A DNA stretch of 64,000 bases. Source: Acidihalobacter sp. (lineage in GTDB: Bacteria; Pseudomonadota; Gammaproteobacteria; DSM-5130; Acidihalobacteraceae). Position numbers and translations under genes: made by a program. Every line of letters begins with the position of its first letter. Positions within the stretch are counted from its first letter, which is position 1. Below the pieces are notes generated by a model that was given only the letters and a program-made list of their open reading frames with translations, did no database searches and was not told the DNA's origin. This document shows positions 44,137 to 62,465 of this stretch, piece by piece. The stretch covers positions 62,001 through 126,000 of the forward strand of contig JALUXU010000063.1 in the NCBI GenBank assembly GCA_027013225.1, in the 5' to 3' direction.

Positions 44137-45414
<1,278 letters not shown>

Positions 45415-45535: not shown

Positions 45536-45859
45536 TTATGTCATAACCGCAGACATGACAAAGGCCAGCTTCGTGTAGCCGATGCTCAAGGCATAGGCGA
45601 TCCACCCCAGAGCCATCGCAAGCAGGGCCAATACCAGAGGTGCGGAAAGCAGGATGCGCAGCCAGCCGCTTTGAGCACGAAATCCAAGCCCGCGGGCGAA
45701 GCCCAATGAGGCGGAAATCACCATCAGGGCAAACAAGGTCTGTCGCCAGCCGTTGGGTGTTGAGGCGATGGTCCATGGGTAAGACAGTACCAGTATGAAA
45801 ACAGCGGCGCCGCCCGCCAGACACAGGAAATTGACTAGAAATTCGAGGCTTCGTTTCAT
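45536..45859 (-). CDS. ybgE: YbgE-family cyd operon membrane protein
   Basis: A 107-residue membrane protein with three hydrophobic segments. The central motif ASLGFARGLGFRAQSGWLR corresponds to the GVGFRPQ block of E. coli YbgE, which is encoded after cydX. Function is unknown, perhaps linked to cytochrome bd assembly. Start chosen at MKRSLEFL (45859); there is no clear SD, and a longer frame would begin inside the terminator hairpin. An intrinsic terminator lies between it and cydX, so expression may depend on read-through. Confidence 0.8.
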   Translation of the reverse strand: MKRSLEFLVNFLCLAGGAAVFILVLSYPWTIASTPNGWRQTLFALMVISASLGFARGLGFRAQSGWLRILLSAPLVLALLAMALGWIAYALSIGYTKLAFVMSAVMT

Positions 45860-45892
45860 GAGATGGACTGTTTTTGGTAATGGGTGTGGGCG

Positions 45893-45924
45893 AAAAAAAA
45901 CCGGGCGGTGATTCACCGCCCGGT
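45893..45924 (-). terminator. Intrinsic terminator between cydX and ybgE
   Basis: On the minus strand ACCGGGCGGTG and CACCGCCCGGT form a perfect 11-bp GC-rich stem with a 3-nt loop (45924-45900), followed by eight T (45900-45893). This is the best terminator in the window. It should end or strongly reduce the cydABX transcript before ybgE. Confidence 0.9.
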
Positions 45925-45939
45925 CAGATCAATAAAACA

Positions 45940-46157: not shown

Positions 46158-47309
46158 TCAGTAAGCATGGTCGTCGGCTTTGACCTGTTCGGGGGTCACC
46201 TTGCCGCGCATCACCCAGAAGCACCAGCTGGTGTAGGAGATGATGGCCGGGACGAAAATCAGCGACCAGCCCAGCATCCACCACAGGGTTCTCTCGCTGG
46301 CGCTTGCGTTCCAAACCGTCAGGCTGTGTGCCGGATCGATGGTGGAAGGGAACATGAATGGGAACGTGGCAGAGGCCACCGTGGCCAGCACGGCGATCCA
46401 TGCCACCGCGCCGGACCACCAGGTGAGTTGGAAGCGGTCCGATCGCGCGGCCAGATAGCCGATCGCGAGCGCCACGTAACCCAGCGCCGGGAAGATCCAC
46501 AGAATCGGATGATGGCCGAAATTGCTCAACCAGGCACCAGCTTCATGCGCCACCGGCAGGGGAATGGTGGGATTGGCCGGCATGTTCGGATCGACCGGGC
46601 CGTTGATGGCGAAGCCCTTCATCATCGCCACCCAGATGCCGCCGATGGTGAACAGGGCCATGGCCGAAGGCACCGCTACGGTCACCAGCTGGCGTGCGCG
46701 CTCCTTCATCGCGCCTTCCGAACGCCCCATGAGCATGGCCGCGCCCATGTACACCGACAGCGACACCGAGAGCAGGCCCATGAGGATGGCGAAGGGGTTG
46801 AACAAAAAGACGAAGCTGCCCAAGTAGTAGGAAATAACGGTGCCATCGGGGACTACCTTGAACGGAAATCCGTCGATGACGTTGCCGAAGGCCGCACCGT
46901 ACACCAGCATGGGCACGAAGCCGCTGACGAACAGGCCCCAGTCCCACATGTTGCGCCACTTGGCCGAAGGCAGCTTGCTGCGATACTCGAAACCGACAGG
47001 CCGTACAATCATCGACCACAGCAGGATCAACATCACGATATACAGCCCAGAAAAGGATGAGCCGTAGATGGTCGGCCAGGCGGCGAAGATCGCGCCGCCG
47101 CCGAGGATGAACCATACCTGGTTGCCGTCCCAATGCGGGCCGATGATGTTGAGCGCCACGCGGCGCTCATCATCGGTGCGGCCCACATAGCGCAGGATGG
47201 TGCCCACGCCCATGTCCATGCCGACCATGATGGCCAGGCCGGCGAACAGCACGCCAAGAAGCAGCCACCAGACGATTTTCAGGATTGCGTATGTACCTAA
47301 GACTTCCAT
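46158..47309 (-). CDS. cydB: Cytochrome bd ubiquinol oxidase subunit II
   Basis: Partner of CydA in the proton-non-pumping bd oxidase. The 383-residue protein has about eight or nine transmembrane helices, with the family features VWWLLLGVLFAGLAIMVGMDMGVG, the HWDGNQVWFILGGGAIFAAWP block carrying the His/Asp residues of the proton channel, and RPVGFEYRSKL. GAGGAG before the ATG. It follows cydA by 15 bp and is followed by cydX. Confidence 0.97.
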   Translation of the reverse strand: MEVLGTYAILKIVWWLLLGVLFAGLAIMVGMDMGVGTILRYVGRTDDERRVALNIIGPHWDGNQVWFILGGGAIFAAWPTIYGSSFSGLYIVMLILLWSMIVRPVGFEYRSKLPSAKWRNMWDWGLFVSGFVPMLVYGAAFGNVIDGFPFKVVPDGTVISYYLGSFVFLFNPFAILMGLLSVSLSVYMGAAMLMGRSEGAMKERARQLVTVAVPSAMALFTIGGIWVAMMKGFAINGPVDPNMPANPTIPLPVAHEAGAWLSNFGHHPILWIFPALGYVALAIGYLAARSDRFQLTWWSGAVAWIAVLATVASATFPFMFPSTIDPAHSLTVWNASASERTLWWMLGWSLIFVPAIISYTSWCFWVMRGKVTPEQVKADDHAY

Positions 47310-47324
47310 GATTATTCTCCTCTA

Positions 47325-48983
47325 TCAATCGCGATTGAGACGTTGCGCCGGGCGGGCAAACGCAGGTTCGCCGGCAAGACTGCCGCCGCCAGTGCCGGTT
47401 TCGTGACTATCCGGACCCTTGCGTGCGAACTTGAACATCAGATACCACTCGATGACGATGAAGAGGCTGTACAAGCTCACGAAGCCGATGAGCGAGAACA
47501 CCATGTAGCCCACACTATGAGTGGATGCGGACAGCCAGGTCGGCAGATGTCCGTACACCGTCCATGGCTGGCGGCCCATTTCCGCAGTGAGCCAGCCCAT
47601 TTCGCAGGCGATGAAGGGCAGGGAGATCATCCACGGCGAGAGCTTCAAGAAGGCCTCGCTCTTCATCTCCTGGCCACGCAAGGACAGTAAAGACACCCAG
47701 ATGAGATAGAAGAGGAACAAAAAGCCCAATGCCACCATGATACGGAATACCCAGAAAATCACCCACACCAAAGGAATGGCATCGTGCGAAGCCTTGGTGA
47801 TGAGCGCGGGCGAGGCCGTGTTCAGATCACTGGTGTAGCGGCGCAGCAGGTAAGCGTAGCCCAGATCTTTCTCATGCGCCTTGAACTGCGCCAGCACCTT
47901 CTGCATGGCCGGATCCTTGGCGCGTACCGCCGGATTGGCCAGGGCCGGGTCTTTTTGCATCATCTGCTGGATCTGGGTCAGCGCGTCATAGGCGGGAATG
48001 CCATTCTTGATGCGGACGGCGGCCTGTTGTTCAAGTTCCTTCAGGCCGATGATCGGCGAAGTGAAGTTGTGCGCGGCCAGCAATGACAGCAAGCCCGGAA
48101 TCTGAATGTCGAAAACATTTTTCTGCGCGGCCTGATCGGGGAAGGCGATGATGGACCAGGCGGCCGGCGCCTTTTCGGTGTTCCACACGCCTTCCATCGC
48201 GGCCAGCTTGGTCGGCTGCTTGCCTGCGTCGATGAAGCCCAGCGCGTCGCCCAAGGTGATGACGCCGACGGTGGAGATCACGCCGAACAAGGCGGCCATG
48301 CGCACCGAGCGGCGGAACAGCTCCACATGGTTCTTGCGCGCCAGATGCCAGGCGCTGATGCCGATCACGAAGATGGCGCCGGTCACGTAGCCGGCGAGCG
48401 TAGTGTGCACGAACTTGGCCTGCGCATCCGGGTTCATCAGCAGGCTCATGAAGCTGGTCAGCTCCATGCGCTGGGTGAAGGGATTAAAGGCTGCGCCGTG
48501 CGGGTCCTGCATGAAGCCGTTGGCGATCAGGATCCACAGTGCCGAAAGGTTGGAGCCCAGGGCCACCAGCCAGGTGACGACCAGGTGCTGCACCTTGGTG
48601 AGGCGATGCCAGCCGAGCAGCATCAGGCCGACGAAGGTGGACTCCATGAAAAAGGCCATCAGCCCTTCGATCGCCAGCGGCGCGCCGAAGATGTCGCCGA
48701 CATAGTAGGAGTAGGTTGACCAGTTGGTGCCGAACTCGAACTCCATGGTCAAGCCGGTGGCCACGCCGAGCGCGAAGTTGATCGCGAACAGCTTGCTCCA
48801 GAACATGACCATGTCCTTGTAGATCTGGCGGCCGGTGACGACATAGGTCGTTTCCATGGCGACCAGAATGAAGCTCAGCCCCAGGGTGAGAGGCACGAAC
48901 AAGAAATGATACAAGGCCGTCATCGCGAACTGCCATCGGGACAGCTCGACTACGGCGGGACTTACAATGTCTGCAGGAACCAT
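47325..48983 (-). CDS. cydA: Cytochrome bd ubiquinol oxidase subunit I
   Basis: Carries haems b558, b595 and d. The 552-residue protein has an axial His26 (YHFLFVPLTLG, the E. coli His19 equivalent), GWHRLTKVQH, a further haem histidine in ISAWHLARKN, and the EMGWLTAEMGRQPW block containing the methionine ligand. The quinone loop is of the long type (LAAMEGVWNTEKAPAAW through KDLGYAYLLRRYT), as in E. coli bd-I and unlike the cyanide-insensitive short-loop oxidases. A GAGGAG SD precedes the ATG. First gene of the cyd operon and under an FNR-type promoter. Confidence 0.97.
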   Translation of the reverse strand: MVPADIVSPAVVELSRWQFAMTALYHFLFVPLTLGLSFILVAMETTYVVTGRQIYKDMVMFWSKLFAINFALGVATGLTMEFEFGTNWSTYSYYVGDIFGAPLAIEGLMAFFMESTFVGLMLLGWHRLTKVQHLVVTWLVALGSNLSALWILIANGFMQDPHGAAFNPFTQRMELTSFMSLLMNPDAQAKFVHTTLAGYVTGAIFVIGISAWHLARKNHVELFRRSVRMAALFGVISTVGVITLGDALGFIDAGKQPTKLAAMEGVWNTEKAPAAWSIIAFPDQAAQKNVFDIQIPGLLSLLAAHNFTSPIIGLKELEQQAAVRIKNGIPAYDALTQIQQMMQKDPALANPAVRAKDPAMQKVLAQFKAHEKDLGYAYLLRRYTSDLNTASPALITKASHDAIPLVWVIFWVFRIMVALGFLFLFYLIWVSLLSLRGQEMKSEAFLKLSPWMISLPFIACEMGWLTAEMGRQPWTVYGHLPTWLSASTHSVGYMVFSLIGFVSLYSLFIVIEWYLMFKFARKGPDSHETGTGGGSLAGEPAFARPAQRLNRD

Positions 48984-49074
48984 TGCGTAATCTCCTCGAA
49001 GTGATGTTAGTAAGACATTGAATTAAAAATAAAAAACCAGACGCCTTTCTTTTAGCGTAATTTCCGGTAAGTGG

Positions 49075-49116
49075 ATTCTACCGAAAAGTAAATATCTGTG
49101 AATTGATCTAGATCAA
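49075..49116 (-). promoter_or_regulatory. FNR/ANR-type class II promoter of cydA
   Basis: TTGATCTAGATCAA (49103-49116) matches the FNR consensus TTGAT-N4-ATCAA perfectly. On the minus strand a -10 element TAGAAT (49080-49075) begins exactly 22 bases after the box. This puts the box centre at -41.5, the class II activation position. The transcript would start near 49068 and have an 85-base leader before cydA. Confidence 0.85.
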
Positions 49117-49129
49117 TTTTTCGGCTTTT

Positions 49130-49663
49130 TTATTTTCCCAGAAGAACGTACAAAGCGCCGGTGCCGCCGTCGGCAGCTTGGGCGGAACAGTAGGCCAGTA
49201 CGTCGTCGAACTGGCGCAACCAGAGGTTCACGTTGGGTTTTAGCACCGGACCGGTATTGCCAGATCGCCAGCCTTTGCCATGAATGACGCGCACGCAGCC
49301 CAGGTGACGTCGGCGGGCTTCGCGGAGAAACTCCACCAGCGCCCGTCGCGCTTCTTCCAGGCGCAGGCCATGCAGGTCGAGTTCGGCTTCGATGCGGTAT
49401 TGTCCTCGTTTGAGCCGCCGGCCGACGGCACGGGGAACGCCATCTCGCGCGTAAAATACCGGATCGAGCGCCAGCCCTCCGCCGTAATCGAAAGGAGCGT
49501 CCCGCAAGTGACGTATCACCTCCATGGAAGGCGGGGAGCAGTAGATTTCCCGTCGCCGTGATCGGGCAGGGGGTGTCCGGGGATGGCGATCATGGCGGAC
49601 AGGGATGACTTCGCCCACGCTGGCGCGAAACAGGGCGCGTTCTTCCGGGTCGATGTCTGCCAT
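49130..49663 (-). CDS. smrA: Smr-domain endonuclease-like protein
   Basis: A 177-residue protein with a C-terminal Smr (small MutS-related) domain: ELDLHGLRLEEARRALVEFL and VRVIHGKGWRSG, the core LDxHG and HGxG motifs, in the last 90 residues. The N-terminal half (RHDRHPRTPPARSRRRE) is basic and disordered-looking. Smr proteins are DNA- or RNA-nicking enzymes; the E. coli SmrB protein cleaves mRNA at collided ribosomes, so which role holds here is open. Very strong SD (AAGGAGGTGA) before the ATG. Located upstream of cydA on the same strand. Confidence 0.85.
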   Translation of the reverse strand: MADIDPEERALFRASVGEVIPVRHDRHPRTPPARSRRREIYCSPPSMEVIRHLRDAPFDYGGGLALDPVFYARDGVPRAVGRRLKRGQYRIEAELDLHGLRLEEARRALVEFLREARRRHLGCVRVIHGKGWRSGNTGPVLKPNVNLWLRQFDDVLAYCSAQAADGGTGALYVLLGK

Positions 49664-62368: not shown

Positions 62369-62465
62369 TCAAGGGCGTTTCGAAATTGATTGAAATCAAA
62401 TAATCGGTCGGCTCGAGAACAAATCGGGTCGGCTGCACCTGGAAGAAGAAGGGGGGACTATAAAA

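Follow-up and report, generated by a model that had tools for sequence, protein, structure and literature searches.

Of the 23 FNR-activated promoters whose start is known in Escherichia coli, 19 have their FNR site at -41.5 ± 4 (PMC3688515). In the same organism, the promoter of cydAB is reported to fall outside this class II type, with FNR acting in repression from a site at -53.5 (PMC3688515). Activation has been described for Herbaspirillum seropedicae, where ChIP-seq and RNA-seq show that Fnr3 directly activates cydAB under oxygen limitation (PMC5934665), and a comparison from 2007 predicted that cydAB is preceded by FNR sites in each of the 10 genomes of its Table 1, which belong to Enterobacteriaceae, Pasteurellaceae and Vibrionaceae (PMC1805755). 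The literature already describes FNR control of cydAB in both directions, repression and activation, and the cydA promoter of Acidihalobacter sp. described here is a well-supported further example. It is like the class II FNR promoters of E. coli in that TTGAT-N4-ATCAA at -41.5 overlaps the -35 region and is followed by a sigma-70 -10 element, the start being a predicted one here (PMC3688515). It is also like the H. seropedicae case in that a bd oxidase operon would be under Fnr activation, here as predicted from sequence; H. seropedicae is a different organism and has three Fnr orthologues (PMC5934665). Most genomes of the 2007 table also have predicted ArcA and NarP sites (PMC1805755), whereas no clear ArcA was found in our genome.

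An smrA-like gene and cydA are 146 bp apart (Table 1), and the promoter lies in this gap, on the minus strand of the window (the whole 64-kb stretch of DNA that was analysed). The gap holds the box, the -10 hexamer and the leader, and 13 bp separate the smrA-like stop from the box. The preliminary description had reported a perfect FNR box 22 bases before TAGAAT with its centre at -41.5; the first statement is borne out with exact coordinates and no mismatch, and the second is correct arithmetic, given the predicted start at 49068. Two perfect FNR boxes are seen in the window (about 0.10 expected under a first-order Markov model of the window). The second one (62386-62399) lies between open frames; on neither side does a hexamer at 21-23 bp reach 4 matches to a -10 element. 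We read the site upstream of cydA as a probable class II FNR-dependent promoter of the cydABX operon (probability roughly 85%). This reading, already put forward in the preliminary description, is supported by the geometry, the conserved box and spacing, the recurrence of such sites in the same genome and the presence of a canonical FNR.

Table 1. Features of the cyd region and its upstream promoter (positions in the window)
Feature	Position	Strand	Remarks
smrA-like gene, Smr domain	49130-49663	minus	upstream neighbour of cydA
FNR box TTGATCTAGATCAA	49116-49103	minus	perfect palindrome, 0 mismatches, centre 49109.5
Spacer, 22 nt	49102-49081	minus	between FNR box and -10 of cydA
-35-like hexamer TTCACA	49097-49102	minus	abuts FNR box; 16 bp to -10
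-10 hexamer TAGAAT	49080-49075	minus	exactly 22 bp after FNR box
Predicted transcription start (A)	49068	minus	7 nt past -10; arithmetic on sequence
cydA leader, 85 nt	48984-49068	minus	AGGAGA ribosome-binding site at 48996-48991
cydA, E. coli bd-I type subunit I, 552 aa	47325-48983	minus	ATG at 48983
cydB	46158-47309	minus	TIGR00203 above cut-off
CydX-like protein, 62 aa	45940-46128	minus	extra N-terminal hydrophobic stretch before PWYFAW core
Intrinsic terminator after cydX	45899-45925	minus	12-bp stem (9 GC pairs) and T run
YbgE-like gene	45536-45916	minus	PF09600 21.9 bits, below 25.2 cut-off
sqr, Acidithiobacillus-type sulfide:quinone oxidoreductase	44137-45414	minus	separate unit by terminator

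We compared the upstream region with those of one other genome of the genus (G001) and three more of the family (G002-G004). In all four, cydA follows the same smrA-like gene and is preceded by a box of the form TTGAY-N4-RTCAA, and in each of them 22 bp lead from the box to a -10-like AATACT or CATACT. When the five sequences are aligned in register with the box, identical columns make up 8/10 of the half-sites, 3/6 of the -10, 4/22 of the spacer and 3/58 of the flanks. The other identical block, found in 5/5 sequences of a MAFFT alignment, is AGGAGA.

Two smaller observations concern the same stretch. The -35-like hexamer TTCACA, a detail missed in the preliminary description, gives 10/12 consensus matches together with TAGAAT, and the alignment reveals no conservation of it in the four same-family relatives; because this hexamer is present, the cydA promoter may be partly active without FNR. 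In the leader (49022-49068, minus strand), the first 33 nt are predicted to form a weak stem, followed by UUUUUUAUUUUU. An attenuator in the leader was considered and rejected, the fold being no stabler than those of shuffled sequences (z +1.05).

At the level of the class, a strong CydA match was found in 71 of 369 genomes, and we collected a panel of 74 cydA upstream regions of 400 bp each. The panel leaves out 7 of 76 CydA places (fragments, second copies, or matches below 485 bits) and also 5 of 9 loci at 37-39% identity; G004 was added, no thinning by genus was applied, and G107 and G223 contribute two rows each. A perfect TTGAY-N4-RTCAA box is found in 22 of the 74 regions, as compared to a mean of 0.15 and a maximum of 2 in 100 runs of an order-1 Markov model; panel counts such as this one are not independent trials, since the rows are related to each other. 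Only a central gap of 4 gives the signal (22 boxes versus 0-2 at the other gaps from 0 to 10). With 59 permuted half-sites the 74 regions contain 0.54 boxes on average, i.e. permutation abolishes the signal, the exceptions being two permutations in which the strict TTGAT box is still contained. A -10 with A2 and T6 stands at exactly 22 bp from 13 of the 22 boxes (12 of 21 without this genome); for the same 22 boxes, A2/T6 hexamers at spacings other than 21-23 number 1.7 on average and 5 at most, and composition shuffles for the 22-bp -10 give a mean of 1.99 and a maximum of 8 in 10,000. Judged by these motifs, the class II placement at cydA recurs across the class panel, which points to repeated use of direct FNR activation of cydA from -41.5; the E. 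coli plan (FNR repression, -53.5) is therefore not to be assumed elsewhere. FNR control of cydA is not universal, since the perfect box is missing in 52 of the 74 regions and the 22-bp -10 is missing in 9 of the 22 boxes.

Within the genome itself, 12 perfect palindromes are found (about 3.6 expected by chance). We call a site promoter-like if it has a -10 with at least 4/6 matches at 22-23 bp in at least one orientation, and six of the 12 palindromes are of this kind: those of cydA, of a cytochrome b operon (C24), of a molybdopterin oxidoreductase whose best NCBIfam match is PhsA, below cut-off (C58b), of a small ORF (C69), of hcp (C9, 23 bp) and the one on C51. The remaining six have no such -10 at 22-23 bp in either orientation, and three of them lie inside frames read by eye as rpoA, uvrB and alr. 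As for the other oxidases of the genome (bo3-like, aa3-like, and a second bd oxidase subunit I), no perfect box was found in the stretches of their loci that were examined, which contain one-mismatch boxes in the second bd locus (two) and the aa3-like locus (one).

Two of the promoter-like sites deserve a description of their own. Upstream of the PhsA-like molybdopterin oxidoreductase (L057, G000:C58:83036), TTGATCTGGATCAA is followed after 22 bp by TATAAT, a perfect class II layout that suggests low-oxygen reduction of sulfur compounds. At L051 (G000:C9:49223), hcp is followed directly by a ferredoxin-reductase-like gene and then by a Crp/Fnr gene (L002), and the FNR box lies about 70 bp ahead of the hcp start.

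The reading would have failed in a genome devoid of FNR-type regulators, as the preliminary description pointed out, but such a regulator is present. The protein encoded on C42 passes the NCBIfam Fnr model (260.6 bits; cut-off 228) and, compared with E. coli K-12 FNR, retains the four cluster cysteines (C20, C23, C29 and C122) together with E209, S212 and R213; position 24 is His and position 28 is Val, G85 is retained, and D86 is replaced by E. Changes at positions 24 and 28 are reported to alter oxygen sensitivity in other FNRs (PMC6659574). The C42 FNR shares 56-60% identity with its counterparts in the family. Two further Crp/Fnr proteins, L002 and L003, retain E/S/R, and the cysteine set is not retained in them. 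It is conceivable, if unlikely, that the cydA box is read mainly by the cysteine-free L002, a possible Dnr-type or nitrosative-stress regulator; the signal for cydA would then be NO or something related to it, either in place of oxygen or in addition to it. Bd oxidases resist NO, L002 has kept E209, S212 and R213, proteins related to it occur in each of the four family genomes (58% identity in G001, 38-39% in G002-G004), and its gene sits just downstream of hcp and the reductase gene, with a box in the hcp promoter itself. However, the best NCBIfam match of L002 is FtrB, below cut-off, FNR is equally conserved and has the canonical sensor residues, and the cydA box is the FNR consensus.

We regard it as considerably less probable still that FNR acts at cydA as a repressor or fine-tuner. 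Such a role would follow the E. coli precedent of direct repression of cydAB (PMC3688515), and a -35-like hexamer does adjoin the box of cydA, but the E. coli site is at -53.5 instead of -41.5 (PMC3688515), the perfect box upstream of E. coli cydA has no -10 at 22 bp, and no clear orthologue of ArcA, which would have to provide the activation, was found (the closest match has 35% identity to E. coli ArcA in a one-way comparison). That the box is a chance palindrome without a role in an AT-rich intergenic stretch is hardly credible: a few perfect palindromes are indeed expected by chance in the genome, and several of the 12 lie in coding-looking frames, but here both box and spacing are kept in the four relatives and across the class panel.

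Under the class II reading, low oxygen probably turns cydABX on, as judged from known FNR biology, because a standard FNR box stands at the standard activating position. Starting from what is read directly (box and spacing, both conserved, and an fnr gene whose product has the residues needed), we infer binding by the C42 FNR, the direction of regulation, the start site and the oxygen response as follows. At low oxygen, the C42 [4Fe-4S] FNR would dimerise, and the dimer would occupy the box, which overlies the -35 region with its centre at -41.5. Bound FNR would then touch RNA polymerase, leading to transcription from about 49068, and transcription of cydABX would yield the high-affinity bd quinol oxidase. 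This reading predicts oxygen control of cytochrome bd beyond the enteric models in a clean form that can be tested. More tentatively, the lineage, in which no clear ArcA was found, may have handed the induction of bd-I to an FNR-class activator at a class II site, with one set of sites joining the oxidase, the PhsA-like enzyme, hcp and the cytochrome b operon; we lean somewhat against this broader proposal. If it is true, oxygen-limited sulfur metabolism and oxygen scavenging would switch together.

The product of cydA is a full-length CydA of the E. coli type with the long Q-loop; its residues 11-530 align to the E. coli CydA of 6rko with 567 bits. The terminator after cydX has a predicted energy of -28.5 kcal/mol for a 61-nt stretch (z -5.0), and the true start of ybgE is likely 45859, because 45916 falls within the terminator. 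Further downstream, residues 2-423 (of 425) of the SQR align with the sulfide-quinone reductase structure 3sz0 (662 bits), which we take to be the A. ferrooxidans enzyme, and sulfide as a quinone reductant is plausible on this basis. The preliminary description had proposed that the bd oxidase oxidises quinol from sulfide. The genuine SQR downstream supports this in part; against a tie to cyd, a terminator precedes ybgE-sqr and the linkage is not general. Among the stretches examined, those of G001 and G244 have sqr downstream of cyd, and it was not found in the cyd stretches of G002, G003 and G004; being not adjacent in 3/4 relatives, cyd and sqr do not form a single linkage that is general in the family. 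The cydA promoter gives no indication of coupling to sulfide.

A single FNR-controlled operon of cyd and sqr was considered and rejected as the default, given the strong terminator after cydX. The same terminator scan on the same strand found nothing in G001 or G002; in G004 it detected a single weak terminator, within ybgE. Since G001 has kept sqr without such a terminator, read-through into sqr may occur there.

The CydX-like protein has no HMM match, and its 62 aa compare with 37 aa for E. coli CydX. The long form is found in all nine other loci that were read (G001-G004, G244, G159, G282, G152 and Acetobacter papayae).
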